Below are positions 973 through 64,000 of a stretch of 64,000 nucleotides of DNA, in pieces. Positions within the stretch are counted from its first letter, which is position 1. Each line of letters begins with the position of its first letter. Under the pieces are notes generated by a model, which was given only the letters and a program-made list of their open reading frames with translations, had not been told where the DNA came from and did not search any database. Made by a program: the position numbers and the translations under genes. Source of the DNA: Uliginosibacterium gangwonense. Its GTDB lineage: Bacteria > Pseudomonadota > Gammaproteobacteria > Burkholderiales > Rhodocyclaceae. The DNA lies in the NCBI GenBank assembly GCA_005239635.1, contig SBBQ01000041.1:79211-143210 (forward strand), written 5' to 3'.

Positions 973-3267
973 ATGAGTGCTACTCGTGTTAAGCGCGGCC
1001 CTAAGCGCGTGTTCAAGATTGTTGCTTTCGTTTTCGGCGGCCTCGTCGCCTTGTTGGCCGTCATTCTCGCCGTTTTGTTAATGAGCTTTGATTCGGCACG
1101 CATCAAAGACGAGTTGGCGCGTCTGGTCATGGAGAAGAAACAGCGCACGCTGACGATTCAAGGCGATCTTTCCCTCTCGTTGTGGCCCAATATTGGTGTG
1201 CGCATGGGCAAAACCACGCTGTCTGAACAAAATAGCGACAAATTATTTATGGCGCTCGATCAGGCGCACGTCTCTGTGGCGGTTTGGCCTTTATTGTCGC
1301 GTCAGTTGATTGTGGACGAGGTGCAACTCTCAGGTGTTCAGGCTAGCCTCGTTAAGCACAAAGATGGTCATAGCAATTTTGAAGATATGCTGTCGAAGGA
1401 GGATGACTCCAACAGCAGCATTCGATTTGATGTGGCCGGGCTCAAGTTGGATGCCACCCAAATTACGTGGGTGGATGAACTGGCTCAACGCGAATTTGTG
1501 CTCAAAGACGCACATTTGCAAACGGGCCAAATTGCCAATCTTGCGTCTGGAAAACTAAGTTTAATCGGCCGTGTAACAGGCAACGCCCCCAAGTTGGACG
1601 CAGGCTTAGCATTACACAGTGATTATCGCTTTGATCTAGAGAAACGCGATGTACTTCTAAAAGATTTGAGCTTGCAGTTTAAGGGTGCAGCCGCTTCTTT
1701 TAGTGACCTCACCGTTGATCTTGTAGCCGGCAGTATTCACACCCAATCGCCTGAAAGTGCGATGGAGTTGTCGCGTCTTAAAATGAGCGTTCAAGGTCAA
1801 ACAGCCGACAGTAAAGCGACTGCCAAAGTAGAGGTGCCTGCACTAACGCTGACCCCCAAAAGCGCCCGGGGCGCTACGCTCACCGCAGAAGGCGATATTA
1901 AAAGCGGTGTAACACAAACTGAATTTAAGGCAAGTCTCGATGGTGTTGATGGGACTGCCCAACAAATCCAAGCGCAAAAATTTGTGCTCAATTTTGCCAA
2001 TACAGCAGGTGCGCGCTCCACCGCAGGCCAGATTACTTCACCGCTGAATCTCGATTTAACGCAGTCAATATTTGGGCTGAATAAAATTGCTGGTGAAGTA
2101 TTGATTAAGAACCCCTCATTGCCGAAGCAAAAATTGCAGTTGCCAGTCTCTGGGCGAATGTCGGCGAATTGGAATGCACAAACGGCTGTTGCTGAGTTGG
2201 CCACCACAATTGACGAAAGTCACGTCAATTTGCACCTAGACGTATTGGCGTTTGCGCCGCTGCGTACACAATTTGATGTAAGTGCGGATCAATTCAATGC
2301 TGATTTGTATCGTGCGCAGGGCGATGCCAACGCCAAATCCGATCATGCTGGTGAAACAACGATTGATCTCTCAGGTTTGCGTGGTATCACAACCGCGGGG
2401 CGTTTGCAGATTGGGGCTTTGCAGGTCATGGGGGTGCATGCTAACAATGTTAGTGCACAACTCGCGATTGCCAATGGCGTGTTAAAGCTCTCGCCACTGA
2501 ATGCAAATTTGTATGACGGCACACTGTCTGGTTCGCTCACGCTAGACGCGAAAGACAATGCAGTGTCTTTGCAACAGTCTTTGGTTAACGTCGGCATGGC
2601 GCCCCTGCTGCGTGACGCGATAAAGAAAGATCCCTTAGATGGGCATGGCACCCTCAACTTTGATGTAGCGACAACAGGTTCAAACGTTTTAAGCATGAAG
2701 CGCAATTTGCGCGGCCAAGCATCCATGAAGCTGCGCGATGGCGCCGTTAAAGGCATCAATCTCGCCAAGACATTGCGCTTGCTTAAAGCGCGTTTGGCAC
2801 TCAATCAAGACATGACGCAAGTAGCCAATAAAGAAGAGAAAACCGATTTCTCTGAACTCACCGCGAGCTTCAATATTCAACAAGGCATTGCGAAAAATTC
2901 CGACCTGATAGCCAAGTCACCCCTACTACGCTTAGGTGGCAATGGCCAGATCAATCTGGGTGAAAGTACGATCGACTATGTTGCCAAAGTGGCCGTGGTC
3001 GGCACGACCACCGGGCAGGATGGAAAAGAACTGGCGCAGCTAAAAGGGGTCACTGTGCCTGTGCGCTTGCAAGGTCCATTCGATAAGTTGAAGTACTCGC
3101 TTGAGGTCAAAGATTTGGTGAGTGATGCAACAAAAGCACAGGTTAAGCAGCAAGTCGATGCTGCTAAAGAGCAAGTGAAAGAGCAGGTCAAAGCGCAGTC
3201 GGACGAAATTAAAGATCAAGCACGCGATAAGCTCAAAGACAAACTTAAAGGCTTATTGGGGCAATAA
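973..3267 (+). CDS. AsmA family inner-membrane-anchored protein
   Basis: AsmA-like proteins are anchored in the inner membrane with a large periplasmic part. Related proteins (TamB, YhdP) form lipid-conducting grooves, and AsmA is linked to outer membrane assembly. Here a basic N-terminus and one membrane helix (about residues 14-37) lead into the AsmA motif, with QGDLSLSLWPNIGVRMG near residue 65, then about 600 residues of beta-rich sequence. The C-terminal AsmA domain lies around 530-700. The last 55 residues are a highly charged helix of AKEQVKEQVK-type repeats ending in KLKGLLGQ. It stands alone between mscL and gabD. The start is the only well-placed ATG before the membrane helix. The exact role is inferred from the family. 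Confidence 0.85.
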   Translation: MSATRVKRGPKRVFKIVAFVFGGLVALLAVILAVLLMSFDSARIKDELARLVMEKKQRTLTIQGDLSLSLWPNIGVRMGKTTLSEQNSDKLFMALDQAHVSVAVWPLLSRQLIVDEVQLSGVQASLVKHKDGHSNFEDMLSKEDDSNSSIRFDVAGLKLDATQITWVDELAQREFVLKDAHLQTGQIANLASGKLSLIGRVTGNAPKLDAGLALHSDYRFDLEKRDVLLKDLSLQFKGAAASFSDLTVDLVAGSIHTQSPESAMELSRLKMSVQGQTADSKATAKVEVPALTLTPKSARGATLTAEGDIKSGVTQTEFKASLDGVDGTAQQIQAQKFVLNFANTAGARSTAGQITSPLNLDLTQSIFGLNKIAGEVLIKNPSLPKQKLQLPVSGRMSANWNAQTAVAELATTIDESHVNLHLDVLAFAPLRTQFDVSADQFNADLYRAQGDANAKSDHAGETTIDLSGLRGITTAGRLQIGALQVMGVHANNVSAQLAIANGVLKLSPLNANLYDGTLSGSLTLDAKDNAVSLQQSLVNVGMAPLLRDAIKKDPLDGHGTLNFDVATTGSNVLSMKRNLRGQASMKLRDGAVKGINLAKTLRLLKARLALNQDMTQVANKEEKTDFSELTASFNIQQGIAKNSDLIAKSPLLRLGGNGQINLGESTIDYVAKVAVVGTTTGQDGKELAQLKGVTVPVRLQGPFDKLKYSLEVKDLVSDATKAQVKQQVDAAKEQVKEQVKAQSDEIKDQARDKLKDKLKGLLGQ

Positions 3268-3422
3268 ACTCTGAATGGTGTGTAAAGTCCTCCATGCGCA
3301 ATGCCAGCACCGCTCCAAAGGCCGCTCAAGAAGGGCTTGCATCACTTGCCAATGTTTTGGCGGCCTACGTTCTGGCGGCGCTGTACAGTGCTAAGTGCGA
3401 TTGTCTTGATCGCGCATGATGC

Positions 3423-4886
3423 TCAATTTCTCGCAGGCGGCACGGCAAGGCACAGATATTTAAGCTCAAGATATTCTTCAATGCCGTAGCGTGAACCTTC
3501 ACGTCCCAAGCCGCTCTGCTTAATGCCACCAAACGGTGCCACCTCGTTAGAGATGAGGCCGGTGTTGCAGCCCACCATGCCGTACTCCAGTGCTTCACTC
3601 ACGCGCATGAGTCGTGCCATATTTTCGGTGTAAACATACGAAGCCAACCCCGTTTGTGAGTCGTTTGCCAATGCAATGACTTCCGCTTCGGTGGTGAATG
3701 CCATCACGGGTGCGACAGGGCCAAAAATCTCTTCGTGCATGCATTGCATGTCATGGTTAGCATGTGTAATGAGTGTGGGTTCGTAATACGTGCCACCTCT
3801 AGCATGCCGTTTTCCACCGCATATCACTTTCGCGCCTTTACGTTGTGCGTCATCAACCAAGCGTTCAACTTTGTTTAACGCATCAACATCGATGAGCGGA
3901 CCTTGTGTTGATTGTGGATCAACGCCCGGTCCGGGCTGAAGCTTTTGTAGCGCATTGGCAAAGCCGGTGCAAAATTGATCGTAGATGCCTTGTTGTACGT
4001 AGATGCGATTGGCGCATACGCAGGTCTGGCCGCTGTTGCGGAACTTTGCGCTTATCGCGCCTTCAATTGCGGCTGATAAGTCCGCGTCGTCGAAAATGAT
4101 AAAAGGCGCGTTGCCACCGAGTTCGAGCGACAGTTTTTTCACCGTGTCTGCACACTGGCGCATGAGTAATTTGCCCACCTCAGTCGAACCGGTGAAACTG
4201 AGTTTGCGAACTAGTGGATTGCGGCACAGCTCAGTGCCAAGTGTCGGCGCATCGCCGGTGATGATATTGAGTACGCCAGGTGGGATGCCTGCGCGGTGTG
4301 CTAACTCAGCCAGTGCTAAGGCGCTGAGCGGTGTTTGCTCTGCCGGTTTGAGCACCATGGTGCAGCCTGCTGCAAGTGCTGGTGCAATCTTGCGCGTGAG
4401 CATCGCCGCAGGAAAATTCCACGGGGTAATCGCTGCGCACACGCCAACGGGCTGCCGCAGCGTCATCAGTCGCAGCGCACTATTAGGGCTGCCCAGTACG
4501 TCACCATTAATGCGTCGTGCTTCGTCGGCAAACCAGTCGACAAACGTCGCCGCGTAACGAGTTTCGCCAAGCGCTTCTTGCAGCGGCTTGCCTTGCTCGC
4601 TGGTGAGAATTAAAGCGAGATCATGTGCGTGCTGCAGGATCAACTCGTGCCACTTACGCAGATAACTTGCACGCTTATGTCCGGTGAGTGCTCGCCATGT
4701 TTGCCAAGCAACATGCGCAGCGTCAATGGCCTCGGCACATTCTTCAGTCGACAGCATGGGCACTTTGCCAATCAACTCACCATTGTCTGGGTTGTGCACG
4801 GAGCGTTGTGCGCTGCTACTCGCCGGCTTCCACAGTCCATTGATGTAACAGTGTTGTTTAAGCAAGTTTGAGTCAGTGAGTTGCAT
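3423..4886 (-). CDS. gabD: NADP-dependent succinate-semialdehyde dehydrogenase
   Basis: Oxidises succinic semialdehyde to succinate, the last step of 4-aminobutyrate breakdown, in the cytoplasm. The 487 residues carry aldehyde dehydrogenase hallmarks: ITPWNFPAAM, the nucleotide-site motif FTGSTEVGK, the general-base region LELGGNAPFII, and the catalytic cysteine in GQTCVCANR, whose flanks are typical of the GabD subgroup. The open frame reaches back to a TTG at 4898, but the ATG at 4886 gives the GabD-like N-terminus MQLTDSNLL and is preferred. No clear ribosome binding site is visible for either start. No transaminase gene is adjacent, so the substrate is inferred from sequence alone. Confidence 0.9.
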   Translation of the reverse strand: MQLTDSNLLKQHCYINGLWKPASSSAQRSVHNPDNGELIGKVPMLSTEECAEAIDAAHVAWQTWRALTGHKRASYLRKWHELILQHAHDLALILTSEQGKPLQEALGETRYAATFVDWFADEARRINGDVLGSPNSALRLMTLRQPVGVCAAITPWNFPAAMLTRKIAPALAAGCTMVLKPAEQTPLSALALAELAHRAGIPPGVLNIITGDAPTLGTELCRNPLVRKLSFTGSTEVGKLLMRQCADTVKKLSLELGGNAPFIIFDDADLSAAIEGAISAKFRNSGQTCVCANRIYVQQGIYDQFCTGFANALQKLQPGPGVDPQSTQGPLIDVDALNKVERLVDDAQRKGAKVICGGKRHARGGTYYEPTLITHANHDMQCMHEEIFGPVAPVMAFTTEAEVIALANDSQTGLASYVYTENMARLMRVSEALEYGMVGCNTGLISNEVAPFGGIKQSGLGREGSRYGIEEYLELKYLCLAVPPARN

Positions 4887-7164: not shown

Positions 7165-9373
7165 CGAGGCGCAGGATGAAGTAACTGAGCCTTTGCAGGC
7201 GACACGGGGGGTTCCGCTCGTGTCGCGTATGAGCTTGTTCACTCGACTATTGCTCGTGAGTGGACTTGTGTTGTTGTTGGGTGGCGGAAGCATGCTTGTG
7301 CTAACGACCAATCACGACGTCGAAACCGCACAAAACAATCTCAAAACCCAACTGCAAAACGAGTTGGGGATTTTAGCGCCGCTTATTGCAGACCAAGCTG
7401 TGCTGGGCGATTACACCGTTATTGATCAGGTTATGCGTGCGCGATTGAGCGACCGCAATGTTGTTTCGGTGAGCTGGACCAACCGCAAGGGCAAAAAAAT
7501 TGAGGTGTCGGATGCGGAGTCGTATTCGTCTGTGCCAACTTGGTTCTCACAATTTGTGGGCTTGCAGTCAATTACTGGAAATAAGCCGCTGATCGTTGGT
7601 GGCTTAAATTACGGCAAGCTTGAAGTGGTGTTATCGCCTACTGTATCAAGGCAGGATATCTACAGTGCATTTAACCAAAATCTGTTCGTGCTAGGTTTGG
7701 CATTAGGTCTGAACTTCATCTTGCTGATGTTGGTGATGCGTTCGGTGTTAAGGCCGCTTGCCGATTTACGCCGTGGTTTGCAGCAGATTGGATCGGGTAA
7801 CTATGGACTTCGGCTGGGTGTATATGGGCCGCCTGAGCTGCGCAGCAGTATGGGTGAATACAACCGTACCGCGCAAACGCTAGAGGTGCTGCATAACACG
7901 CTGTCTGAACAGCGCCGAGCCATTGAGCACGCAGCGATGGTGGTTGAGACCGATTTGTTTGGCCGCATTACTTATGTGTCAGACAGTTTTTGCCAATTAT
8001 CAGGCTACCGACGTGAAGAATTGATGGGTCGCACCCATGCACTCATGAAGTCTAACCATCACAACGCTGATTTTTATCGCGTGATGTGGGAAACCATTCG
8101 TAATGGCCAGCCTTGGGCCGGTGAAATTTGTAATGTGCGTCCAGATGGCTCTGCCTATTGGGTATACACCGCCATTACCCCGTTTATTTCTCCGCAGGGC
8201 TGGGTCGAAAAATATGTCGGGGTGCGTTACGACATTACGGAGCGCAAAACTGCAGAGATTGAACTGGTGCGTGCGCGTGATCAAGCCGAAGCCGGCAGTC
8301 GTGCCAAGAGTGAATTCTTGGCAACAATGAGTCATGAAATTCGCACGCCGATGAATGGCATTCTCGGTATGGCAGAGTTGCTCAAAGATTCTGAACTGGA
8401 TGAGATGCAGCGCGAGTACCTGAATATCATTCAGTCTAGTGCGAATGGCCTGCTATCGGTGATTAACGACATTCTCGACTTTTCGAAAATGGAAGCTGGT
8501 CGCATGCAGATGGTAAATCAAGAGTTTGATCTAAACCTCTTGCTGCAAAATGTGCTTGCAGAATTTAAGCTGCGCGCTGAGACGAAGCAACTTCAGTTGC
8601 AAATGCGTATGGCGGATGATGTACCCGGGATCGTAGTTGCTGACCCGATTCGCTTGCGTCAAGTGCTGACGAATTTAATTGGCAATGCCATTAAATTTAC
8701 GAGTGAGGGTTTTGTGCGTGTCAGTGTGGAAATGGACCTACCTACTGCACGTGGTCCTCGTTTGCGTTTCATCGTTGCAGACAGTGGCATCGGTATCGCC
8801 CCCGAGAACCAGGCGCGCATCTTTGAATCCTTTGTGCAAGAAGATGGTTCAACCTCACGCAATTATGGTGGCACAGGCCTAGGCCTTGCGATTTGCCAAC
8901 GGCTCGTCACATTAATGGGCGGCAACATCCATGTGCAAAGCCGGCAGGGCGAGGGCAGTGCCTTTAGCTTCACCATTCAGGCCGAAACGCCGCAATTAGC
9001 ATTGGTTGGACACGGCAAACAAATCTTGGTGCAGCAACACGACCTCACCAGTCGCCGCATGGTGGCTGCAATGCTGGAACGTTTGGGCTACGAAGTGAAG
9101 GCCGTTGCTTCGCCAGACGAAGTGCGTTTGTCGCTAGAGCGAGGACACTACAACGCACTGATTCTCGAAGTCGATGTCACGGCGAAAGATGAAGCCGCTA
9201 AGTGGGTACAGCAACTGCCAGACAGTACGTTGGTAATTGGCGTGCGCACCGCGGACTTCACCGCAGAAGATGCTCGTGACGAGGCGACGCTGCCCGGCGT
9301 GAGCCTGCATGCCTGCTTGCACAAGCCGGTACGTCAGTCTGATCTTGAAGCGGCACTCGAAGGCTTGGTTTGA
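7124..9373 (+). CDS. Membrane hybrid-type histidine kinase with HAMP, PAS and a degenerate receiver
   Basis: Domain order (numbering from an upstream ATG at 7094, 10 residues longer): membrane helix 49-70, periplasmic domain 71-195, membrane helix 196-217, HAMP to about 270, PAS 275-385, HisKA with phospho-acceptor H414 in SHEIRTPMNGIL, HATPase with DSGIGI and GGTGLGLAI, then a C-terminal receiver-like domain. That last domain looks inactive: the acidic pair is replaced (ILVQQHD) and the acceptor position reads LILEVDV, out of register with the usual LMD. ATG 7124 is chosen because it gives the shorter overlap with the preceding binding-protein gene; neither start has a clear ribosome binding site. 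No response regulator gene lies next to it, so the output partner is elsewhere. Confidence 0.88.
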   Translation: MTTTVNSSETVASDEAQDEVTEPLQATRGVPLVSRMSLFTRLLLVSGLVLLLGGGSMLVLTTNHDVETAQNNLKTQLQNELGILAPLIADQAVLGDYTVIDQVMRARLSDRNVVSVSWTNRKGKKIEVSDAESYSSVPTWFSQFVGLQSITGNKPLIVGGLNYGKLEVVLSPTVSRQDIYSAFNQNLFVLGLALGLNFILLMLVMRSVLRPLADLRRGLQQIGSGNYGLRLGVYGPPELRSSMGEYNRTAQTLEVLHNTLSEQRRAIEHAAMVVETDLFGRITYVSDSFCQLSGYRREELMGRTHALMKSNHHNADFYRVMWETIRNGQPWAGEICNVRPDGSAYWVYTAITPFISPQGWVEKYVGVRYDITERKTAEIELVRARDQAEAGSRAKSEFLATMSHEIRTPMNGILGMAELLKDSELDEMQREYLNIIQSSANGLLSVINDILDFSKMEAGRMQMVNQEFDLNLLLQNVLAEFKLRAETKQLQLQMRMADDVPGIVVADPIRLRQVLTNLIGNAIKFTSEGFVRVSVEMDLPTARGPRLRFIVADSGIGIAPENQARIFESFVQEDGSTSRNYGGTGLGLAICQRLVTLMGGNIHVQSRQGEGSAFSFTIQAETPQLALVGHGKQILVQQHDLTSRRMVAAMLERLGYEVKAVASPDEVRLSLERGHYNALILEVDVTAKDEAAKWVQQLPDSTLVIGVRTADFTAEDARDEATLPGVSLHACLHKPVRQSDLEAALEGLV

Positions 9374-9391: not shown

Positions 9392-10855
9392 TTACAGCAA
9401 GACAATGTCGAATTGTTCTTGTGTGTAACTGGGCTCGGGCTGTAGTGAAATCGGTTTGGCAATGAAGTCAGACAACATTGCCAACGATTGCGACTCTTCG
9501 TCTAGAAACAGGGTTACCACAGTCGGTGCCGCAATAATGCGAAACTCGCGGGCATCTAAATATTGGCGGGCTTCACGTAGTAAGTCGCGCAAAATCTCGT
9601 AGCACATTGTTTGCGCGGTTTTAACTTCGCCGCGGCCACCACAGGTTGGGCACTCTTCGCACAGCACGTGGGCGAGTGATTCACGCGTGCGCTTGCGCGT
9701 CATCTCCACCAAACCCAATTGCGTAAAGCCAGACACACTCAATCGTGTGCGGTCTTTTGCCAATGCTTTGTTGAGTTCGGTGAGCACAGCAAGGCGATGC
9801 TCAGGGTTGTCCATGTCGATGAAGTCGACAATGATGATGCCACCTAAATTGCGCAGACGAAGTTGCCGCGCAATAGTGTGCGTGGCCTCTAGGTTGGTTT
9901 TGAAAATGGTGTCGTCAAAATTGCGTGCGCCCACAAAACCGCCGGTGTTCACATCAATCGTGGTCATGGCTTCGGTTTGATCAATGATCAAATAGCCCCC
10001 ACTTTTTAAATCAACCCGACGTGCAAGGGCACGTTGAATTTCATCTTCCACACCATGTAAATCAAACAGCGGACGTTCGCCCGTGTAGTGATCAATTACA
10101 TTCTCCAGTTGCGGCATATACACATGCGCAAAGTGTTTAAGGCGAACGTAGTTCTCACGTGAGTCGACCAAAATGCGTTGGGTGCTCTCGCTGACCAGGT
10201 CGCGTAGCGCACGTTGGCCGAGGTTAAGGTCTTCGTGCAACAAGGCCTGTGGTTTGGCTTGCTTCGAGCGCGCTTGAATATCGTCCCAAGCTTTACGTAG
10301 ATATCCAATATCTGCGGCGAGCTCTTCATCGGTGGCCGACTCTGCCATCGTGCGCACAATGTAGCCGCCGGGTTCCTCTTGTGGCACAAGTTTTTGAATA
10401 CGTGCACGCAGCACTTCACGTTCTTGCTCGTCTTCAATGCGCTGCGAAATGCCAATATGCTTATCTTGCGGCAAGTAGACCAGCAAGCGGCCAGCGAGCG
10501 AAATTTGTGTGGTGAGGCGTGCACCTTTGGTACCGATGGGGTCTTTTAAGACCTGCACCATGAGCAGCTGGCCTTCGTGCAGAATACGTTCAATTGGGCG
10601 AGCATCACCATGATGCGCGTTATGGCGCTCTTCCCAAATGTCTGCCACATGCAAAAACGCAGTGCGTTCTAGACCAACATCAATAAAGGCCGATTGCATG
10701 CCAGGCAACACGCGCACGACTTTGCCCAAGTAGATGTTGCCGACCAACCCGCGAGAGGCGTTTCGTTCGACCAAGAGCTCTTGTACTTGGCCTTGCTGCA
10801 TGAGCGCCACACGTGTTTCTTGTGGCGTGAAGTTCATCAGAAAGATTTCATTCAT
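9392..10855 (-). CDS. rng: Ribonuclease G
   Basis: Single-strand-specific endoribonuclease of the RNase E/G family, needed for 16S rRNA 5' end maturation and decay of some mRNAs. The 487 residues hold an S1 RNA-binding domain (GNIYLGKVVRVLPGMQSAFIDVG, about 35-60), the catalytic aspartates in IDVNTGG and VDFIDMD, and the zinc-link cysteines in CPTCGGRG. The open frame extends upstream to 10903, but the ATG at 10855 gives the standard MNEIFLMN start and lies 4 bp after the maf stop. The downstream neighbour is the convergent sensor kinase, 18 bp away. Confidence 0.96.
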   Translation of the reverse strand: MNEIFLMNFTPQETRVALMQQGQVQELLVERNASRGLVGNIYLGKVVRVLPGMQSAFIDVGLERTAFLHVADIWEERHNAHHGDARPIERILHEGQLLMVQVLKDPIGTKGARLTTQISLAGRLLVYLPQDKHIGISQRIEDEQEREVLRARIQKLVPQEEPGGYIVRTMAESATDEELAADIGYLRKAWDDIQARSKQAKPQALLHEDLNLGQRALRDLVSESTQRILVDSRENYVRLKHFAHVYMPQLENVIDHYTGERPLFDLHGVEDEIQRALARRVDLKSGGYLIIDQTEAMTTIDVNTGGFVGARNFDDTIFKTNLEATHTIARQLRLRNLGGIIIVDFIDMDNPEHRLAVLTELNKALAKDRTRLSVSGFTQLGLVEMTRKRTRESLAHVLCEECPTCGGRGEVKTAQTMCYEILRDLLREARQYLDAREFRIIAAPTVVTLFLDEESQSLAMLSDFIAKPISLQPEPSYTQEQFDIVLL

Positions 10856-10859: not shown

Positions 10860-11477
10860 TTACACCGGATAGCCGAATGATTTGAGCAGTGTGCAGGTTT
10901 CAAATAATGGCAGCCCCATAATGCCGGTATAAGAACCGCGAATTTCTTCTACAAACATGCCCGCCCGCCCTTGAATGCCGTATGCGCCTGCTTTATCCAT
11001 GGGTTCGCCACTCGCGACGTAGCGAGCAATATCCGGCTCACTAAGTTGAGTGAAGCGTACATCACTCACGCTGGTAATGTGCTCAAGGCGATTACCATCG
11101 CACATCGCTACTGAGGTGAGTACGCGATGCGTGCGGTCGGAGAGGGATTTTAAAATGCGTGCTGCATCGTCCGCGTCTGTGGGCTTGCCAATAATGACGC
11201 CATCTAAATCAAGCGTGGTATCTGCAGATAACACGGGGTGGATTGGCAAATGTCGCAGCGCTAATCTTTTCCAACCCCCTTCTGCTTTGGCGCGAGCAAT
11301 GCGCTGCACGTAGTCGAGCACGCCTTCGTTTGGCAAAGGGTCTTCATTCACGTCAAGATCGCTACGTTCGCCACTGCGAAACAGCAGCACATCAAATTGC
11401 ACATTAAGTTGACGCAATAATTCACGTCGGCGCGGACTGCGCGAAGCGAGATAAATGCGAGGCGGCAAACTGTTCAT
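10860..11477 (-). CDS. maf: Maf-family nucleoside triphosphate pyrophosphatase
   Basis: Hydrolyses non-canonical or dTTP/UTP-type nucleotides to monophosphates. The 205 residues show the Maf signature LASRSPRRRELL near the N-terminus, the catalytic aspartate region SADTTLDLDG, and GKP followed by AYGIQG. The SPRR motif is typical of the YhdE (dTTP/UTP) subgroup. It sits between rlmH and rng in the usual betaproteobacterial order and is likely co-transcribed with both. Confidence 0.93.
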   Translation of the reverse strand: MNSLPPRIYLASRSPRRRELLRQLNVQFDVLLFRSGERSDLDVNEDPLPNEGVLDYVQRIARAKAEGGWKRLALRHLPIHPVLSADTTLDLDGVIIGKPTDADDAARILKSLSDRTHRVLTSVAMCDGNRLEHITSVSDVRFTQLSEPDIARYVASGEPMDKAGAYGIQGRAGMFVEEIRGSYTGIMGLPLFETCTLLKSFGYPV

Positions 11478-11503: not shown

Positions 11504-11983
11504 TTAATCGCGATGATAAGGGTGGTTAATGAGCAAACTGTGCGCGCGATAGAGTGCTTCTGCGACCAGCACACGCACCAGCGCATGCGGCAGTGTAAGG
11601 CTTGATAGACGCACCTTTTCATGCGCTCTGGCCTTAATTGCATCCGACAAGCCATCCGGTCCGCCAATAATCAGCGCGACATCGTTGCCACTACTTTGCC
11701 AACGCTCCATACGCTGCGATAGCGTGCGTGTATCGAGCGCCTCACCGCGTTCATCTAATACGACGACACGGATATGTGAGCCACAGTTTGCCAATGCTGC
11801 TTCAAGCCGTTGTTGTTCGGCTTGCATCATTTGCGGCACCGTTTTGCCGGTGGTGCGCGGCTCTGCTTTTACTTCGGTCAAGATTAACGGCAGGTCGCGC
11901 GGCATGCGATTTTGATAGTCGCGAAAGCCACTTTCGACCCAATCCGGCATGCGTGTGCCAACTGCAATCAGATGCAGCTTCAT
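11504..11983 (-). CDS. rlmH: 23S rRNA pseudouridine-1915 N3-methyltransferase RlmH
   Basis: SPOUT-fold methyltransferase that methylates pseudouridine 1915 in helix 69 of 23S rRNA. It shows the N-terminus [10 protein letters not shown], the SAM-binding knot [10 protein letters not shown], and the conserved end [10 protein letters not shown]. The open frame runs on to 12043, but the ATG at 11983 gives the standard 159-residue length and lies 1 nt after the rsfS stop, so the two genes are coupled. Confidence 0.96.
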
Positions 11984-13011: not shown

Positions 13012-13769
13012 GCAGCCTGTTCCGGCGTCACGTTCATGGCGGTATCCGGTTCGGTGATAAACACATCAAAATAGCTGAGTGCTGCGGTGGTTATTAAAGT
13101 GGGCCCCAACATGAAGGCTAAAAAGCCACGAATAAAACCACCAATAAAATCTGCATGACTACCAAACACGGCATTGGTGAGCAGCAAAATGGCACTTGGA
13201 ATGATGAGCGCCCACAAAATAACGCCTAAGCCAAATACAACGAAGGCGCGCCAATTACGTAGTACGGCTACAACGCCAAAGAAGATAGATTTACCTGCGT
13301 TGAGACCGTGCCAATTGGCAAGATACGGCGCAAACCACATCGCTAAGGTGAGCGGCAGCACAAGCGGCAATAGCTTGAGTAATTGCCAAAATGCAGCATC
13401 TTGGTCTTTGGCAGGAACACCATAGAGCAACAGCGCGATCAGTAACACCAGCAGTGTGCCCATCACTTGCAAGCCGCCAAGGTGCAGTAGGGTCATGCTG
13501 CTTTTTTTGATGCCGAGAATAAAAATCTCGTGGCTCATTTGGCGCGACTGGCGCAATTGACGCACGACATTGCCAATCAAAGCGGCTAGTAAGGGCTGCG
13601 CCAAGGCGATAATAATTTGGCCGACAGTACTCAGGCTAAACATGACCAATATCAGCGCGTAAGACATGGTTAGCGCAATCAAAATGGCCGGATTGCGTAG
13701 GTAGAGACGCAGGCTATCTAGCAGCCAAGCGTAGCCGCGTGAGGCGGGTAGAACACGTGCCTGAATCAA
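13008..13769 (-). CDS. BPSS1780-family membrane protein (second of a pair)
   Basis: Polytopic inner-membrane protein of unknown function with about six membrane helices. The family N-terminus (here IQARVLPASRGYAWLLDSLRLYLRNP) begins directly after a TTG at 13769, which overlaps the TGA of the upstream gene by 4 bp. I prefer that start to the open-frame start at 13916, whose extra residues read like frame noise from the neighbour. It forms a tandem pair with a paralogue upstream and is coupled to nadD downstream by another 4-bp overlap. Function is not known. Confidence 0.75.
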   Translation of the reverse strand: MIQARVLPASRGYAWLLDSLRLYLRNPAILIALTMSYALILVMFSLSTVGQIIIALAQPLLAALIGNVVRQLRQSRQMSHEIFILGIKKSSMTLLHLGGLQVMGTLLVLLIALLLYGVPAKDQDAAFWQLLKLLPLVLPLTLAMWFAPYLANWHGLNAGKSIFFGVVAVLRNWRAFVVFGLGVILWALIIPSAILLLTNAVFGSHADFIGGFIRGFLAFMLGPTLITTAALSYFDVFITEPDTAMNVTPEQAA

Positions 13770-14559: not shown

Positions 14560-15519
14560 TTAAGGTAAAGGAATCGAATTGGCAATGCGTTGTCTGAGTA
14601 CGTCACGAAAGCGTGTTGGATCGTGACGATGAACCATTTCGCCTTCACGCGGCAAGTGCAAATCAAACAAGCGCGATAACCAAAAACGCAATGCGCCGGC
14701 ACGCAACATCGCTGGCCATGCTGAACGTTCTAATGCGTTAAAGGGCCGAATGTCATGATAGGCCTGCAATAGCGGTTGGGCGAGGTTTTCATCAAGCGAG
14801 CCATCAGTGCGCGAGCACCAGTCATTTACGGTTACGGCCACATCAAACAGCAGCGCATCGTTGCCGGCAAAATAAAAATCAATAATGCCGCCTACGCGTG
14901 CGCCATCGTCTTCTTCAAATAGGCAGTTGTCACGGAACAAGTCAGCGTGCACAACGCCACGCGGCAAATCGTGCGTGTGATGCAAACCCTGAAAACGCAA
15001 TTCTTCTTTCAGCAGCCATTGTTCGTCTGGCGGCAGGAATGGCATTACTTGCGGGGCGACATCTTTCCACCAACGCGGGCCGCGCGGGTTTTCAAGTTTG
15101 CGCCCATAGCTTTGGCCTGCAATGTGCATGTCGGCCAACATAGCGCCAATTGCAGCGCAATGTCGCGCGTCTGGCTCCATGACTGAACGACCTGAAAGAC
15201 GGGTAACGAGCGCGGCGGGTTTGTCGTGCAGGGTGCCGAGGTATTCGTTATCGCGGTCTGCAATCGGCGCCGGGCAAGGAATGCCGTGGCGCGCCAAATG
15301 TGCCATGAGATGAATGTAAAACGGCAACTCGGTGCGTGTGAGCTTTTCAAATAGCGTGAGCACAAAACGACCGCCATTTGGCCCGTGTGTGGTAGTCACA
15401 AAATAGTTGGTGTTTTCAATGCCGGCAGAAATGCCTTGCAGCTCGGTGAGCGAGCCAACTGAGTAATGTTTGAGCCAGCCAGAAAGCTGCTCTTCGGTAA
15501 CGGTGGTAAAGACGGACAT
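14560..15519 (-). CDS. thrB: Homoserine kinase, aminoglycoside-phosphotransferase type
   Basis: Phosphorylates homoserine in threonine synthesis. This is the ThrB form with the APH kinase fold, common in betaproteobacteria and pseudomonads, not the GHMP form of E. coli. Evidence: ISAGIENTNYFV near the N-terminus, the Brenner motif VVHADLFRDNCLF with catalytic aspartate (about 194-206), and GGIIDFYFAGNDALLFDVA for metal binding. Length of 319 is standard. The next gene on the same strand is the BPSS1780-type membrane protein. Confidence 0.94.
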   Translation of the reverse strand: MSVFTTVTEEQLSGWLKHYSVGSLTELQGISAGIENTNYFVTTTHGPNGGRFVLTLFEKLTRTELPFYIHLMAHLARHGIPCPAPIADRDNEYLGTLHDKPAALVTRLSGRSVMEPDARHCAAIGAMLADMHIAGQSYGRKLENPRGPRWWKDVAPQVMPFLPPDEQWLLKEELRFQGLHHTHDLPRGVVHADLFRDNCLFEEDDGARVGGIIDFYFAGNDALLFDVAVTVNDWCSRTDGSLDENLAQPLLQAYHDIRPFNALERSAWPAMLRAGALRFWLSRLFDLHLPREGEMVHRHDPTRFRDVLRQRIANSIPLP

Positions 15520-15683
15520 GCTACGGTTAAGTTGCGATCGCGATTGAATGTCGAAGGATTGAACAACGATTGGTGTAAAGCGCGCTACGATTTACTAGGC
15601 AAGCAAAACACACACACTTTTTTGCCAATCCTTGTGTTGTTCCTGAGTTGTTTGTTGTTATGTGCTGCCGACGGGGATTTGGT

Positions 15684-41006: not shown

Positions 41007-41089
41007 ATTGGCAACGAGAGTGGCACAGGGCTGGCGCGGCTACATATTGGGCTTAACAAACAGAGGGTTAGGCCTAAAATCTGCGCTGC

Positions 41090-51902: not shown

Positions 51903-52727
51903 TCAGCGTGTTGAGGCGACAGCATTTCTTTGCGTTGAATTCAGCTTATACAACATGACGCCACCGATGAGCATCATCGGTACGCAGAGCCATTGTGCGG
52001 TTGATAAGCCTAGGCCCAACGCCGTGACATGGTCGCCAAAAATACCCGCATCCGGGGTGCGGAAAAATTCAGCGATAAAACGCAGCAAACCATATCCCAA
52101 TAAAAATGCAGCGCTAACCGCTTTGAGCGGACGCGGCTTGGCTGAATATATCCACAGCACCACGAACAGCAGCAGTCCTTCAAGACCTACCTGATACAAC
52201 TGAGAGGGGTGGCGCGGCAAGGTGTCGACATGTGGAAACACCATGGCCCAAGGCAAATCTGCGGAAGCGGGGCGTCCCCACAGTTCGCCATTGATGAAAT
52301 TGCCAATGCGGCCAGCAGCCAAGCCGGTTGGTACGAGCGGGGCAATAAAATCGGTGACCTGCCAAAAACGACGACCTGTACGTTGAGCCCACAGCCAACA
52401 AGCCACCAAAACACCTAGAAAGCCGCCATGGAAGCTCATGCCGCCTTGCCAGATGGCAAATACCTGCATAGGGTGAGATAAGTAGTAGGTGGGCTGATAA
52501 AACAACACTTCACCTAGCCGCCCGCCGATTACAACCCCCAGCATGCCCCAAAACAACAGGTCTTCCAGTGCTTGCTTGTCAAAGCCTAATTCAGGACGAC
52601 GCTTCAGGTGCTGGCGTCCTAGGGCAATAAACAGGCCAAACGCCATCAGATACGTTAGGCCATACCAGCGAATCGCGAGTGGTCCGAGATGAATGGCAAT
52701 GGGATCAATATCTGGGTGTATCAGCAT
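51903..52727 (-). CDS. lgt: Prolipoprotein diacylglyceryl transferase
   Basis: Inner-membrane enzyme that transfers diacylglycerol from phosphatidylglycerol to the lipobox cysteine of prolipoproteins, the first step of lipoprotein maturation. 274 residues with about seven membrane helices. Family motifs: [12 protein letters not shown] at the start, [22 protein letters not shown], and the signature [15 protein letters not shown] (about 140-154), with [12 protein letters not shown] after it. It stands alone, convergent with the LuxR-type regulator. Confidence 0.96.
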
Positions 52728-53141: not shown

Positions 53142-55001
53142 ATGCCTGCCTATCGTTCTAGAACCTCTACCCATGGCCGCAATATGGCCGGCGCACGTGC
53201 ATTGTGGCGCGCAACCGGCATGAAGGATGGCGACTTTGGCAAACCGATTATTGCTGTCGTTAATTCATTTACACAGTTTGTGCCCGGCCACGTGCACCTC
53301 AAAGACTTGGGGCAACTGGTTGCGCGCGAAATTGAGGCGGCCGGTGGTGTGGCCAAAGAGTTCAACACCATTGCGGTGGATGACGGCATCGCAATGGGTC
53401 ATGGCGGTATGTTGTATTCGTTGCCGTCACGCGAACTGATTGCCGACTCAGTTGAATACATGGTGAATGCGCATTGCGCGGATGCCATGGTGTGTATTTC
53501 AAACTGCGACAAAATCACCCCGGGGATGTTGCTAGCCGCTTTGCGCATCAACATTCCGACGGTGTTTGTATCGGGCGGCCCTATGGAAGCGGGCAAGGTC
53601 ATTTTGGCTACCGATGGCAAGCAAAAAATCATCAAGCTCGACTTGGTGGATGCCATGGTGAAAGCAGCGGATAGCAATTGTTCCGATGAAGAAGTGGAGG
53701 CGGTGGAACGTTCTGCATGCCCAACCTGCGGTTCTTGCTCGGGCATGTTCACCGCCAATTCCATGAACTGTCTGACCGAAGCGCTTGGACTTTCATTGCC
53801 CGGCAATGGTTCGCTATTGGCAACGCATGCTGACCGCAAACAGTTGTTCCTCAAGGCCGGCCGCTTGGCGGTTGAGCTGTGTCAGCGTTACTACGAACAA
53901 AATGATGAACGCGTGCTGCCGCGTAATGTTGCGAGCTTTAAAGCATTCGAAAACGCGATGACGCTCGATATCGCCATGGGCGGTTCGACCAATACTGTGC
54001 TGCATTTATTGGCGGCGGCGCGTGAAGCCGGCGTGGACTTTACGATGAAGGATATTGATCGTTTGTCGCGCAAGGTGCCGTGCTTATCCAAGGTCGCACC
54101 TGCCAAAAACGATGTGCATATGGAAGATGTGCATCGCGCCGGCGGCATTATGGGGATTCTGGGAGAGTTGGATCGTGCAGACCTGATTCATCGCGATGTG
54201 CCCACCGTGCATTGCCACACGTTGGCCGAAGCACTGGATACCTACGACATCATGCGTGCGCACGATGTTGGTGTGTTTGAGTTTTATCGCGCTGCGCCCG
54301 GTGGTGTGCCGACGCAAGTTGCCTTCTCGCAAGATCGACGTTATCCCGAACTGGATATGGACCGCGCACATGGCGTGATTCGTAGCCAACAAAATGCGTT
54401 TAGCCAAGATGGCGGCTTGGCGGTGCTGTACGGCAATATCGCGCTTAATGGCTGTATTGTAAAAACCGCTGGCGTTGATGAATCGATCCTGAAATTCACG
54501 GGCAAAGCGCGTGTGTACGAGAGCCAAGAGGATGCAGTTGCCGGCATTCTGAATGAAGAAGTGGTGGCGGGTGAGGTGGTCATTATTCGCTACGAAGGCC
54601 CGAAGGGTGGGCCGGGTATGCAGGAAATGCTGTACCCCACTAGCTATCTCAAATCACGCGGGCTCGGTGCGCAATGTGCCTTGCTAACGGATGGTCGCTT
54701 CTCAGGTGGTACGTCGGGCTTGTCGATTGGCCATGCTTCTCCCGAAGCGGCACAGGGTGGCGCGATCGCGCTGGTGGAAACGGGCGACTTGATCGAAATC
54801 GATATCCCGAACCGCCGCATTCACTTGGCGGTGAGTGATGCCGAATTGGCTGCGCGTCATCAACAGCAGCTTGCACGTGGTGACCAAGCCTACCGTCCGC
54901 TCAAGCGCGAACGCCTTGTTTCAGCTGCATTGCGCGCCTATGCTGCGATGACCACCTCGGCAGATACAGGCGCAGCGCGCGATGTGAGCCAACTTAAGTA
55001 A
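53142..55001 (+). CDS. ilvD: Dihydroxy-acid dehydratase
   Basis: Fe-S enzyme that dehydrates 2,3-dihydroxy-isovalerate and its Ile-pathway counterpart. ATG 53142 gives 619 residues with the standard start [27 protein letters not shown]; upstream codons to 53076 are unlikely. Cluster cysteines lie in [12 protein letters not shown] and [41 protein letters not shown] is the C-terminal signature. This is the [4Fe-4S] E. coli-like long form. It ends with a hairpin 9 bp after the stop. Confidence 0.97.
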
Positions 55002-55036: not shown

Positions 55037-55073
55037 ATTGGCAAAGCGCGTTAAGCTGGACCGTGTTGCCAAT
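55037..55073. repeat. Inverted pair of the dispersed octamer downstream of ilvD
   Basis: ATTGGCAA (55037-55044) and TTGCCAAT (55066-55073) are 21 bp apart in the non-coding gap between ilvD and mgtE, right after the ilvD hairpin. Intergenic inverted pairs next to gene ends are typical of uptake sequences. Confidence 0.75.
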
Positions 55074-55260: not shown

Positions 55261-56733
55261 ATGGCCGAGCAAGAAACCCTTCTCGATCAGGAAGATATTC
55301 AGCAGCGACTGCGTGAAGTGCAGGCGCTGCTCGATAAGCATCATCTCGTCGAGCAATTGGTGCATCGGCAAGAAGAGAATCGCCATCAGGTTGAGCAAGG
55401 CGAAGACCAACGAGCCAATCTGGTTGAGAACCTAGTCCACAAGCAACACGAAGCCGAACTCCGCAGCAAGCTGGATGCAATGCACTCGGCCGATGTTGCG
55501 CACATCCTTGAGGCCTTGCCGCTGCGCGACCGCTTGGTAGTGTGGGACTTGGTGAAAGCAGAGCGCGACGGCGAAATTCTGCTTGAAGTGTCGGATGCGG
55601 TTCGCGAAACGCTGATCGAGGCCATGCAGCCGCAAGAGCTGGTTGCAGCGGCTGAGACACTCGACACCGATGAGTTGGCCGACCTTGCGCCGGACTTGCC
55701 GGCGGAGGTGATGCAAGATGTGTTCCGTTCCTTGGAAGTGGGCGAACGGGAACAGTTGCGTGCCGCAATGTCCTATCCAGAAAGTGCCGTCGGCGCACTG
55801 ATGGATTTCGAGATGGTGACGGTGCGCGACGATGTGACGCTCGAAGTGGTGTTGCGTTATCTGCGTCGCTTTGATGAGTTGCCGGACCACACCGATCAAA
55901 TTTTTGTGATTGACCGTGACGATCGCTTGCTCGGTACGTTGCCAATCTCACGCCTTTTGGTGAACGATCCTGAAATTGCCGTCGCTGAAGTCATGAATAC
56001 CGAGCCGCTGGTGCTGCATGCCAACGACGAAGCGGAACATGCGGCCGAGGCTTTTGACCGTTATGACCTCGTGACGGCAGCGGTTATTGACCAAAATGGA
56101 CAACTCACGGGCCGTTTAACGGTGGCTGCGGTACTCGACTTTGTGCGGGAAGAAAGCGAAGCAGAGCAATTGGCATTAGCCGGTCTGCGTGAAGAAGAAG
56201 ATATTTTTGCGTCCGTCATGGACTCAGTTAAAAACCGTTGGGCGTGGCTGGCCATTAACTTGATTACAGCATTTGTGGCCTCGCGTGTAATTTCAGGCTT
56301 TGAAGGCTCTATTGAGAAATTGGCCGCGCTGGCTGCGCTCATGCCCATCGTGGCAGGTATTGGCGGTAACTCAGGCAATCAGACGATTACCATGATTGTG
56401 CGTGCCATTGCTTTGGGCCAGGTTCAACCCGATGCTGCGCGCAAGTTGTACCGCAAGGAAATGGGCGTGGCTTTGCTAAACGGCCTCATTTGGGGTGGCT
56501 TACTCGGCATTATTACGTGGATGCTGTACCACTCATTTAAGCTGGGCTTGGTGATGACCTCTGCGATGACGCTGAACCTCTTGTTGGCGTCATGTGTTGG
56601 TGTGGCGATCCCGATGTTGATGCATAAATTTGGGCGCGACCCCGCTGTCGGTTCCAGCGTGTTGATTACCGCTGTTACCGACTCTGGTGGATTCTTTATT
56701 TTTCTCGGTTTGGCGACGCTGTTTTTGCTGTAA
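55261..56733 (+). CDS. mgtE: Magnesium transporter MgtE
   Basis: Mg2+-gated channel of the inner membrane. 490 residues: a charged N-terminal coil, the MgtE N domain (HSADVAHILEALPLRDRLVVWDLV; LAPDLPAEVMQDVFRSL), two CBS domains (about 180-300, with MSYPESAVGALMDFEMVTV), a connecting helix, and five membrane helices with GGNSGNQTITMIVRAIALGQV and the pore motif AVTDSGGFFIFLGLA. The start follows a 258-bp gap. Its terminator lies inside the 3' end of the opposing hemL. Confidence 0.95.
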   Translation: MAEQETLLDQEDIQQRLREVQALLDKHHLVEQLVHRQEENRHQVEQGEDQRANLVENLVHKQHEAELRSKLDAMHSADVAHILEALPLRDRLVVWDLVKAERDGEILLEVSDAVRETLIEAMQPQELVAAAETLDTDELADLAPDLPAEVMQDVFRSLEVGEREQLRAAMSYPESAVGALMDFEMVTVRDDVTLEVVLRYLRRFDELPDHTDQIFVIDRDDRLLGTLPISRLLVNDPEIAVAEVMNTEPLVLHANDEAEHAAEAFDRYDLVTAAVIDQNGQLTGRLTVAAVLDFVREESEAEQLALAGLREEEDIFASVMDSVKNRWAWLAINLITAFVASRVISGFEGSIEKLAALAALMPIVAGIGGNSGNQTITMIVRAIALGQVQPDAARKLYRKEMGVALLNGLIWGGLLGIITWMLYHSFKLGLVMTSAMTLNLLLASCVGVAIPMLMHKFGRDPAVGSSVLITAVTDSGGFFIFLGLATLFLL

Positions 56734-56754: not shown

Positions 56755-58047
56755 TTAAAGCCCGTTGCTAAAAATAGCGCGGGCTTTTTCTATGGTGGCG
56801 GCGATATCCGCATCGCTATGTGCGGCAGACACAAAGCCCGCTTCAAATGCTGATGGCGCAAGGTATACGCCGGCATCCAACATGGCGTGGAAGAAGTAAT
56901 TGAATCTCTCTTGGCTGCATTCCATCACTTCGTTGTAGCTAGTTGGCGTGCTGGCGCGGAAATACAAGCCGAACATGCCGCCAACGGATTGCGCAGAAAA
57001 CGCGACGCCGCAGGCTTGCGCTGCTTGCGCTAAGCCTTCGCACAAATCTTGGGTGCGTTTTGCCAATTGCGTATAGAAGCCGGGGGCTTGAATCAGCTCC
57101 AATGTTTTGAGGCCTGCCGCAACCGCAACAGGGTTGCCGGATAATGTACCTGCTTGATACACCGGGCCGAGCGGCGCAATTTTTTCCATAATCTCGCGTC
57201 GGCCACCGAATGCGCCGACTGGCATGCCGCCGCCAATGACTTTGCCCAAGGTGGTGAGGTCTGGCGTAATGCCAAACAGCCCTTGTGCTGAACCTAAGCC
57301 CACGCGGAAGCCAGTCATCACTTCGTCGAAAATGAGGACGCTGCCGTGCTGGGTACACAGTTCGCGCATGGCTTTCAAAAATTCCGGCGTCGGCTTAATC
57401 AAATTCATATTGCCCACAACTGGCTCTACGATTACTGCAGCAATGCGTGCGCCGTGAGCTTTGAAAGTCTCTGCCAATTGTTGTGGGTTGTTGTATTCGA
57501 GCACCAGCGTGTGATTGGCAAAATCAGCAGGCACGCCGCCGGAGCTGGGGTTGCCAAACGTGAGTGCGCCAGAGCCTGCCTTAACCAGTAGGCTGTCGGC
57601 GTGGCCGTGATAACAGCCTTCGAATTTGATAATGGCATCGCGGCCGGTAAAGCCTCGCGCCAGCCGAATGGCGCTCATGGTGGCTTCGGTGCCACTGCTT
57701 ACCAGTCGCACGCGCTCCATGCTGGGCACAAGCTGACATAGGGTTTCAGCCATCAAAATTTCGGCTTCAGTGGGGGCGCCAAAAGACAGGCCTGCTTCGG
57801 CTGCTTGCTGGACTGCTTTGACCACCTCTGGGTGGGCGTGGCCTACGATTGCGGGGCCCCACGAGCCGACGTAATCAATAAACTCTTTGCCATCTGCATC
57901 CCATAGCCGACTGCCTTGTCCGCGTGTAAAGAATCGTGGCGAGCCACCGACGGAGCGAAATGCTCTCACGGGCGAATTTACACCACCCGGAATGCTTTGT
58001 TGTGCGCGAGAAAAGAGTTCGTCATTGCGTGATGCGTGGGCTGTCAT
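56755..58047 (-). CDS. hemL: Glutamate-1-semialdehyde 2,1-aminomutase
   Basis: PLP enzyme that makes 5-aminolevulinate for haem, B12-type tetrapyrroles and sirohaem. 430 residues with [18 protein letters not shown] near the start, [19 protein letters not shown] for PLP phosphate, [14 protein letters not shown], and the PLP lysine in [17 protein letters not shown]. The gene's last codons also form the mgtE terminator on the other strand. It lies 60 bp from thiE on the same strand. Confidence 0.96.
56757..56788 (+). terminator. mgtE terminator embedded in the hemL coding end
   Basis: AAAGCCCG (56757-56764) pairs with CGGGCTTT (56780-56787) and is followed by a T run on the plus strand. It overlaps the final codons and stop of hemL, so one DNA stretch serves as coding sequence and as terminator for the opposite gene. 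Confidence 0.8.
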
Positions 58048-60631: not shown

Positions 60632-60673
60632 TTAAACATCTACACAAATTACGAAAAAAGGTAGGGGACTCAC

Positions 60674-62797: not shown

Positions 62798-62844
62798 TTG
62801 GCCTGTCGCAAACAGCCACATCGTTGTCACGGATCGTTCCACAC

Positions 62845-64000
62845 ATGACCACCAATCAAACATCCGGTTCGAATGATTTTGATCTGGGCCCCCTAACGTG
62901 GGTCCAGGGCGAAATTGATCTCGCGCTTGCACGTGCGAGCGAAGCGCTCAAGCAAGTCGAGCAGGGCGATACCGGCGCATTGCGTTTTGCACAAACGCAC
63001 CTGCACCAAGCGCGCGGTGCGTTGTCGATCGTCGGCCTAGACGGACTAACGCAATTTTGTGAAACGGTTGAACAGTTGATGTCGGAGCTGGCTGAGCGTG
63101 CCGACGCCAACCTGCACCTTGATTTGCTTAATCGATGCTTAACCGCCGTACGTCAGTTTCTTGAAGGTTTGATGGCAGGTGGGGCTAACCAATCGATGCA
63201 GTTGTTGCCTTTGTATCGCGAGCTGCAAGATGTGCGCGGCCAGTCCAATGTGATGGCGTCAGATCTGTTTTTCCCAGATCTGAGCGTACGTCCTGATATC
63301 AAGGTTAACAACCCCAAACCCTTGCCGCCAACCGAAATGGCGCAGCTGTTACGCAAAGAGCGTTTGCGCTTTGAGCGTGGCTTGCTTGAGTGGCTGCGCA
63401 ATCCGCAGCAGCCAGAAGGTTTGGTCAAAATGCGCGATGCCGTGCAGTGCATTGAAGACGCGCAAGGCGCAGCTTCGGCTCGCTCATTTTGGTGGATTAC
63501 ACACGGACTGATTGAAGGCCTAGCGCGCGGCTCAATTGAGCCGGATTTTTACGTTAAGCGCCTCTTTGCACGTATCGACTTGCAAATGCGCCGCTTATTG
63601 GATGGCTCCCGAACTGTTGCAGAACGCGTGATGCGTGATGCGCTGTATTTGGTGGCGACCGCCATGCCGGGCGGTGAGCGACTTGAAGAAGTTCGTTCTG
63701 CTTATCGCTTAGATAATTTATTGCCACCTTCGCACGCGAGTGGCGATGACAATGCACCGCTCCTCAACCAATTGCGCGGCATGCGCGAGGCAACAGCCGC
63801 CGCAAAAGATGCTTGGAACCGGTTCACCGCCGGCGCTGCAATTGCGTTGCCACAGTTTGAAGATGCGGCTGTATCACTTCAGCAGCGTGCGACTGAATTA
63901 GCTGACCCTGATGTGGGTGGGCTTTGCCAATCCATTGCCAATGTTGCGCAATCTTTGCGGCGTGACCCGCTGCAAAACAATGAAACGCTTGCCATGGAAA
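62845..64000 (+). CDS. pilL: PilL/ChpA-like hybrid chemotaxis kinase, N-terminal part, cut by the window end
   Basis: The frame is open from ATG 62845 to the last base, 385 codons. It starts 47 bp after pilJ, where pilL/chpA belongs. An N-terminal Hpt-like helical domain carries HLHQARGALSIVGLDGLTQFCETVEQL (about 51-77), and a long all-helical part typical of ChpA follows. The kinase, CheW and receiver domains would lie beyond the window. Two copies of the dispersed octamer lie 11 bp apart at 63924 and 63935. Confidence 0.8.
   Translation, partial: MTTNQTSGSNDFDLGPLTWVQGEIDLALARASEALKQVEQGDTGALRFAQTHLHQARGALSIVGLDGLTQFCETVEQLMSELAERADANLHLDLLNRCLTAVRQFLEGLMAGGANQSMQLLPLYRELQDVRGQSNVMASDLFFPDLSVRPDIKVNNPKPLPPTEMAQLLRKERLRFERGLLEWLRNPQQPEGLVKMRDAVQCIEDAQGAASARSFWWITHGLIEGLARGSIEPDFYVKRLFARIDLQMRRLLDGSRTVAERVMRDALYLVATAMPGGERLEEVRSAYRLDNLLPPSHASGDDNAPLLNQLRGMREATAAAKDAWNRFTAGAAIALPQFEDAAVSLQQRATELADPDVGGLCQSIANVAQSLRRDPLQNNETLAME

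Follow-up and report, generated by a model that had tools for sequence, protein, structure and literature searches.

An over-represented word in the 64-kb window

The subject of this study is a stretch of Uliginosibacterium gangwonense DNA that is 64,000 nucleotides long (the window; contig SBBQ01000041.1 of assembly GCA_005239635.1, positions 79,211 to 143,210) and a short word that recurs in many of its genes and in the gaps between them. The word has an 8-base form, TTGCCAAT, and a 9-base form, TTTGCCAAT, which is the 8-base form with a further T. The window lies within contig C26 of an assembly of 2,454,221 bases in 81 contigs, for which the completeness was estimated at 99.95% and the contamination at 1.76%. 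Genes in the window were assigned using a simple purpose-made gene caller, and the annotation, which covers part of them, includes polA, msbA, ilvD and a methylmalonyl-CoA mutase gene. The part at 59267-63999 encodes a pair of response regulators together with a CheW-like protein, a chemoreceptor and an Hpt-domain protein, a group that resembles a pilus chemosensory (Pil-Chp) cluster. The original prediction, which regarded the word as a candidate new DNA uptake sequence, had also stated that genes of the type IV pilus are present here; this chemosensory set was found, and no pilus structure genes were found among the window genes that were annotated.

Exact matching on both strands gave 64 copies of TTGCCAAT, 38 on the plus strand and 26 on the minus strand, so that the hand count on which the prediction was based was correct for the plus strand and slightly low (25) for the minus strand. 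The mean in 100 dinucleotide shuffles of the window was 5.88 copies and the maximum was 11, which corresponds to an excess of approximately 11-fold; relative to an order-2 Markov model, in which the copies of the word push up the parameters, the excess was 8-fold. The word had been described as about 30 times over-represented. This figure holds relative to base composition, against which the 8-mer is enriched 35.7-fold in a 911-kb sample (969 kb of stretches from the same genome minus C1:16701-64641 and contig C21), but not relative to the two window models. As predicted, more than half of the copies (38 of the 64, 19 per strand) carry the further T, and the copies are found both within called genes (52) and between them (12), with all six frame and orientation classes represented (Table 1). 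A part of 6.4 kb (57523-63922) is free of the word; the chemosensory genes are among those that it contains. Four inverted pairs have starts less than 60 bases apart (11185/11242, 32646/32667, 36325/36381 and 55037/55066); the existence of such pairs had been noted correctly, whereas their supposed position beside gene ends in two cases held only in part, as 55037/55066 alone lies outside the called genes.

Table 1. Copies of the 8-base form (TTGCCAAT) and the 9-base form (TTTGCCAAT) in the window, with the gene in which each lies and the strand of that gene
Form	Position	Strand	Location	Remark
8-base	1532..1539	+	gene 973-3267 +	
9-base	1993..2001	+	gene 973-3267 +	
8-base	2468..2475	+	gene 973-3267 +	
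8-base	3346..3353	+	intergenic	
9-base	3664..3672	+	gene 3423-4886 -	
9-base	3954..3962	-	gene 3423-4886 -	
9-base	4764..4772	+	gene 3423-4886 -	
9-base	7989..7997	+	gene 7094-9373 +	
8-base	8678..8685	-	gene 7094-9373 +	
9-base	9756..9764	+	gene 9392-10855 -	
8-base	11185..11192	+	gene 10860-11477 -	inverted pair with 11242..11250
9-base	11242..11250	-	gene 10860-11477 -	
9-base	11787..11795	+	gene 11504-11983 -	
8-base	13314..13321	-	gene 13008-13769 -	
8-base	13570..13577	+	gene 13008-13769 -	
8-base	14578..14585	-	gene 14560-15519 -	
9-base	15621..15629	+	intergenic	
9-base	15691..15699	+	intergenic	
9-base	18136..18144	-	polA 17130-19916 +	
8-base	18318..18325	+	polA 17130-19916 +	
9-base	18692..18700	-	polA 17130-19916 +	
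9-base	18845..18853	-	polA 17130-19916 +	
9-base	19308..19316	+	polA 17130-19916 +	
9-base	19445..19453	-	polA 17130-19916 +	
8-base	22876..22883	+	gene 21997-23112 -	
9-base	23595..23603	-	gene 23109-24287 -	
9-base	26232..26240	+	gene 25421-26527 -	
8-base	27796..27803	+	msbA 26536-28302 -	
8-base	28616..28623	+	gene 28368-29507 -	
9-base	30628..30636	-	intergenic	
9-base	30835..30843	-	intergenic	
9-base	31547..31555	+	gene 30947-31909 +	
8-base	32021..32028	+	gene 31906-32736 -	
9-base	32646..32654	-	gene 31906-32736 -	inverted pair with 32666..32674
9-base	32666..32674	+	gene 31906-32736 -	
9-base	33866..33874	+	gene 33720-35651 -	
9-base	33927..33935	-	gene 33720-35651 -	
8-base	34002..34009	+	gene 33720-35651 -	
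8-base	34830..34837	+	gene 33720-35651 -	
8-base	35754..35761	-	intergenic	
9-base	36041..36049	+	intergenic	
9-base	36325..36333	-	called gene 36284-36490 +	inverted pair with 36381..36388
8-base	36381..36388	+	called gene 36284-36490 +	
9-base	37771..37779	-	gene 37391-37858 +	
9-base	38803..38811	+	gene 38670-39485 -	
9-base	39523..39531	+	intergenic	
8-base	40548..40555	-	gene 40323-41006 -	
8-base	41007..41014	-	intergenic	abuts gene 40323-41006
9-base	41512..41520	-	intergenic	
9-base	41617..41625	-	methylmalonyl-CoA mutase gene 41571-43781 +	
9-base	44668..44676	-	gene 44612-45598 +	
8-base	46654..46661	+	gene 45690-47222 +	
9-base	47070..47078	+	gene 45690-47222 +	
8-base	47260..47267	+	gene 47241-49241 +	
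9-base	48023..48031	-	gene 47241-49241 +	
8-base	52300..52307	+	gene 51903-52727 -	
8-base	53816..53823	-	ilvD 53076-55001 +	
9-base	55037..55045	-	intergenic	inverted pair with 55066..55073, past ilvD end
8-base	55066..55073	+	intergenic	
8-base	55939..55946	+	gene 55261-56733 +	
9-base	57059..57067	+	gene 56755-58047 -	
9-base	57514..57522	-	gene 56755-58047 -	
9-base	63923..63931	+	gene 62845-63999 +	
8-base	63935..63942	+	gene 62845-63999 +	

Abundance, anatomy and distribution across the genome

In the whole genome, TTTGCCAAT was found 1,457 times (706 forward, 751 reverse), which corresponds to 594 copies per Mb or approximately one per 1.7 kb. The reversed word, which is a lenient control because it includes TAA, was found nine times (three forward, six reverse). 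The 911-kb sample contained 553 nine-mers compared to the 5.6 that were expected from base composition and the 22, 28, 31 and 50 that were expected from Markov models of order 1, 2, 3 and 4, respectively, to which the word itself contributes; at orders 5 and 6, where the model already contains most of the word, the expectation was 124 and 339. The whole-genome count, a comparison that had been named beforehand as a test of the prediction, is therefore far above expectation. Among the 3,780 distinct words with the same letters, whose median count in this sample was 4, TTTGCCAAT ranked first, and the words ranked second to fourth overlap it. Moreover, some form of the word was the top over-represented 8-mer in 34 of the 40 stretches of this genome that are at least 15 kb long. 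Another 8-mer was at the top in the remaining six (L099, L100, L101, L167, L173 and L175); the GC-rich portion of contig C1 is represented by L100 and L101.

The consensus consists of a sharp TTGCCAA core with a softer T on either side. The 1,336 cores in the 911 kb had the ends T..T in 553 cases, A..T in 152, T..A in 115 and A..A in 68, and substitutions of the first and last T were better tolerated than those in the core, for which most of the single-base variants were at the background level. Approximately twofold above background were the variants TTTGGCAAT (43 vs. 19), which corresponds to the core with A..A ends on the opposite strand, and TTTGCCATT (35 vs. 17). The word is thus directional, with a 7-base core and a soft position at either end. 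An analysis of the 345 nine-mers with full flanks, out of 355 in 577 kb, showed a weak T before the word, C or G after it and minor preferences at the two positions beyond; the flanks were otherwise unconserved, and no AT-rich tracts were found beside the word. A mobile repeat was rejected because the flanks are unconserved.

The gene caller predicted 894 genes in the genome sample, with 87.4% of the DNA being coding. Most of the 553 nine-mers (442) were located in genes, while 107 were intergenic, in gaps that make up 12.7% of the DNA, and four were on edges. When the proteins were kept and their codons were redrawn by genome usage (five rounds), 48.0 in-gene nine-mers were expected, and all six frames were enriched (observed/expected 112/13.0, 9/0.4, 38/1.8, 84/12.8, 42/13.0 and 157/7.0). 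Hence, the enrichment does not come from one frame or one codon pair, which was the other test that had been named beforehand. Residues that are coded by the word were identical in relatives in 0.48 of the comparisons compared to 0.56 for composition-matched residues (96 sites in the 105 of the 894 proteins that had usable relatives). The conservation of the word-coded residues was lower in 33 of 54 genes, and this effect, although modest, fits a word that is pressed on permissive positions.

Within genes, the reverse sense was commoner than the forward one (283 vs. 159), whereas, judged by the local GC skew, 276 nine-mers were oriented with the leading strand and 277 against it, and there is thus no replication-strand bias. 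Both observations align with the description of known uptake words, for which one orientation was reported to be commoner within genes and a general orientation bias was likewise reported to be lacking (PMC2346458). Adjacent 8-mers were on opposite strands in 431 cases and on the same strand in 395. An analysis by tenths of genes showed no clear gene-end bias of the kind that is found in Pasteurellaceae, except that forward words were scarcer in the first tenth.

Apparently acquired DNA, related genomes and competence genes

On contig C1, the word is dense up to base 16,660, after which there are lone 8-mers at 19,062 and 62,818. The stretch C1:16701-64641 (47.9 kb, 62% GC) contains no nine-mers and two 8-mers, whereas the core density of 0.607 per kb would predict approximately 29 nine-mers for a stretch of this length. 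A tyrosine integrase is encoded near its start (L100:1341-2543, i.e., C1:18041-19243), and the stretch (L100-L102) also encodes a DUF3363 protein and proteins with matches to ubiquitin-like defence families. It appears to have been acquired; its far border is hidden by the contig end, and a misjoin or a contaminant is possible. Contig C21 (C21:1-10115, 10.1 kb, L110), which has no nine-mers and one 8-mer, carries an integrase beside a guaA-like gene as well as a HipA-like gene, and its DNA also appears to be acquired. The genome sample had seven more gaps, 6-10 kb long, in which the 8-mer is absent; the closer analysis of such gaps covered contig C21 and the one in the window. The absence from genomic islands is an established mark of the neisserial DNA uptake sequences (DUS) (PMC7371117).

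The genus is represented by this genome alone. Among 150 sampled genomes of the family, this one included, the runner-up had 137 copies of TTTGCCAAT in 5.0 Mb, and among 399 sampled genomes of the order, again with this one included, it had 199 copies in 3.8 Mb. Twenty stretches from genomes of the family (386 kb in total, one of them just 6 kb long) held zero to four copies each, the word being the top one in none of them, and zero or one copy was found in each of 73 named loci of relatives (at least 9 kb; seven shorter ones of the 80 were dropped). The occurrence of the same word in relatives was therefore rejected, with counts being far lower in the other 149 family and 398 order genomes, and among the genomes that were sampled, the abundance of TTTGCCAAT is confined to its own genome. 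The closest named relatives of MsbA were Rhodocyclus, Azonexus, Dechloromonas and other Rhodocyclaceae, with an identity of up to 59%, and those of PolA were Rhodocyclaceae bacteria, Methyloversatilis, Zoogloea and Thauera, with approximately 69-73% identity, so that the host very probably belongs to Rhodocyclaceae. Relatives in the protein collection, one of them on a 323 kb contig, reached 80% for PolA (P0122, P0123) and 77% for the pilin (P0002) and point to a sister lineage. A sister genome was sought in 395 family genomes and was not found, the best other match being 75%. The family genome with the second-highest count among the 150, G073, has a strong local 8-mer of its own in G073:C1:100001-120000 (L191), GTAAAGCT, with 13 copies compared to 0.33 expected and with overlapping words, and it may represent a repeat confined to that locus. 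Local repeats of other kinds were also seen in some of the relatives.

Six pilus and competence families were searched for in the genome and all of them were present, including PilQ, ComEA, ComEC, DprA, prepilins and a ComP_DUS pilin. The search for pilA/comP-type minor pilins, which had been proposed together with the prediction, yielded a minor-pilin gene cluster in which one pilin, at C30:13003-13494, belongs to the Pfam family ComP_DUS (PF16732), with a score of 41.6 bits against a cut-off of 27.3. The fold is not specific, and a comparison with solved structures by fold and by sequence identified an ordinary pilin. Because the family is widespread, this pilin is no more than a candidate for the receptor of the word. 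The adjoining pilin is FimT/PpdA-like, with weak PpdA-type matches. At the ComEC locus (L156, contig C25), six 8-mers lie in 3.8 kb around comEC, which is denser than the sample mean.

A candidate uptake sequence and its alternatives

Based on sequence-level features and gene content, we infer that TTTGCCAAT is likely a DNA uptake sequence, i.e., a tag that would be read by a surface pilin and would let the cell take up DNA of its own kind, with a probability of roughly 0.84. The original prediction is supported by the abundance of the word, its asymmetric consensus, its enrichment in all frames, the lack of a strand bias, its absence from a large stretch that appears to be acquired, its confinement to this genome among those sampled and the presence of all six pilus and competence families that were searched for. 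Similarly to the neisserial DUS (ATGCCGTCTGAA and its dialects, with the receptor ComP), the word occurs in hundreds to thousands of copies on both strands, in genes and in gaps, and is missing from island DNA, and its host likewise has type IV pilus, ComEA and ComEC genes and a ComP_DUS-family pilin. In contrast, all eight neisserial dialects share a 5'-CTG-3' core (PMC3630211), which neither TTTGCCAAT nor its complement contains. Further differences are that the DUS have 10-12 bases and the word here has nine, that the host is outside Neisseriaceae, with Rhodocyclaceae as the nearest named relatives of its MsbA and PolA, that inverted pairs are not in excess and that the receptor is a candidate.

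The uptake signal sequences (USS) of Pasteurellaceae (AAGTGCGGT and ACAAGCGGT) are also nine-base words, and their density is of the same order as the 594 per Mb of TTTGCCAAT. PpdA/ComN is the predicted USS receptor (PMC12616744), to which the pilin with weak PpdA-type matches beside the ComP_DUS-family pilin is a parallel. The word itself, however, is neither AAGTGCGGT nor ACAAGCGGT, and it has no AT-rich tracts in its flanks, whereas those of the USS are AT-rich (PMC12616744). Thus, as had been claimed, it differs from the words of both families. A review from 2016 describes sequence-specific uptake words in two families, Neisseriaceae and Pasteurellaceae (PMC5031613). Our search of titles and abstract openings, largely in the open literature, found no report of an uptake word in Rhodocyclaceae or in Burkholderiales outside Neisseriaceae, and titles and abstract openings likewise gave no family with uptake words beyond the two. 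The letters of TTTGCCAAT stand within the text of 249 papers, and uptake was the subject of none of the 20 titles listed. We think it likely that a Rhodocyclaceae lineage has a third, independently evolved system of self-DNA recognition in bacteria, with its own word, TTTGCCAAT, and with a minor pilin of either the PilE/ComP_DUS or the FimT/PpdA family, both widespread, as its reader.

In such a system, the word would be bound at the tip of the pilus, in a single orientation, by the ComP_DUS-family pilin or by the FimT/PpdA-like pilin that adjoins it, followed by retraction of the pilus through PilQ. The DNA would then be drawn in by ComEA and ComEC and loaded for recombination by DprA. Since DNA that bears the word would be favoured, its copies would be propagated and restored with every round of transformation where the protein sequence tolerates them, which is a form of molecular drive. 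If true, a third case, in a lineage whose sampled relatives lack the word, would bear on the questions of how uptake-word systems start and how general minor pilins are as receptors. Pilins that act as word-specific receptors could be compared with those that lack this specificity, the origin of the word could be dated, and the reasons for the emergence of species-level DNA recognition beyond the two known families could be addressed. Such a case would also imply that ordinary minor pilins can repeatedly become word-specific receptors.

An excess of close inverted pairs, which is a known side-feature of uptake words, was not found: 8-mer pairs less than 60 bases apart numbered 38 compared to approximately 45 expected, with 28 of the 38 being inverted. 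The TTGCCAA core is palindromic except for its centre base, which favours the main rival, a HIP1-like word, i.e., a dispersed oligomer that is kept by DNA modification, repair or another process and has no role in uptake. We take the cyanobacterial palindrome GGCGATCGCC to be the HIP1 word. It resembles the present word in being short, dispersed and strongly over-represented, with 5,648 copies compared to 5 expected in Synechocystis (PMC1939737). A palindromic site, however, would favour complementary ends, while the word is directional by its ends, T..T being far ahead of T..A and A..T; the asymmetry of the 1,336 cores weakens this explanation, as does the presence of all six searched pilus and competence families, and we consider it improbable. 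Even less probable is a site that is bound by a protein of chromosome organisation or recombination (Chi-, KOPS- or nucleoid-protein-like), although the dispersal of the word at about one nine-mer per 1.7 kb would suit such a site. Words of the Chi and KOPS type are short, over-represented and polar along the replichore, unlike TTTGCCAAT, for which a polar recombination or segregation word was rejected by the 276:277 symmetry, and the 48 kb of contig C1 without a nine-mer would be left uncovered.

Transcription terminators or regulatory elements could account for the intergenic share (107 of the 553 nine-mers in 12.7% of the DNA) and for a few inverted pairs past gene ends, such as the one at 55037-55073 of the window. 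With 442 nine-mers within genes in all frames, we regard this explanation as very unlikely, and it was rejected as the main cause because close pairs are not in excess; the inverted pairs may therefore be terminators here and there, but no more. An artefact of codon use, of a repeated peptide or of base composition is the least credible of the explanations and has almost no weight. The frames are indeed unequal, the F-A-N frame holding 112 of the 442 in-gene copies and the L-A frame 157, but the synonymous redraw, with its expectation of 48.0 and its enrichment of each frame, refuted a codon or peptide origin, and the intergenic gaps also hold more than their share of the word.

The acquired-looking DNA of contig C1 has a feature of its own. 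A fused E2-E1-JAB protein (L100:8546-10801) adjoins a gene (L100:10847-11917) whose product matches PADLOC PDC-M48B (506 bits) and LmuA (69 bits), and L100:7356-8549 also matches LmuA (45 bits). Judged by these matches, this neighbourhood is a candidate ubiquitin-like defence cluster.

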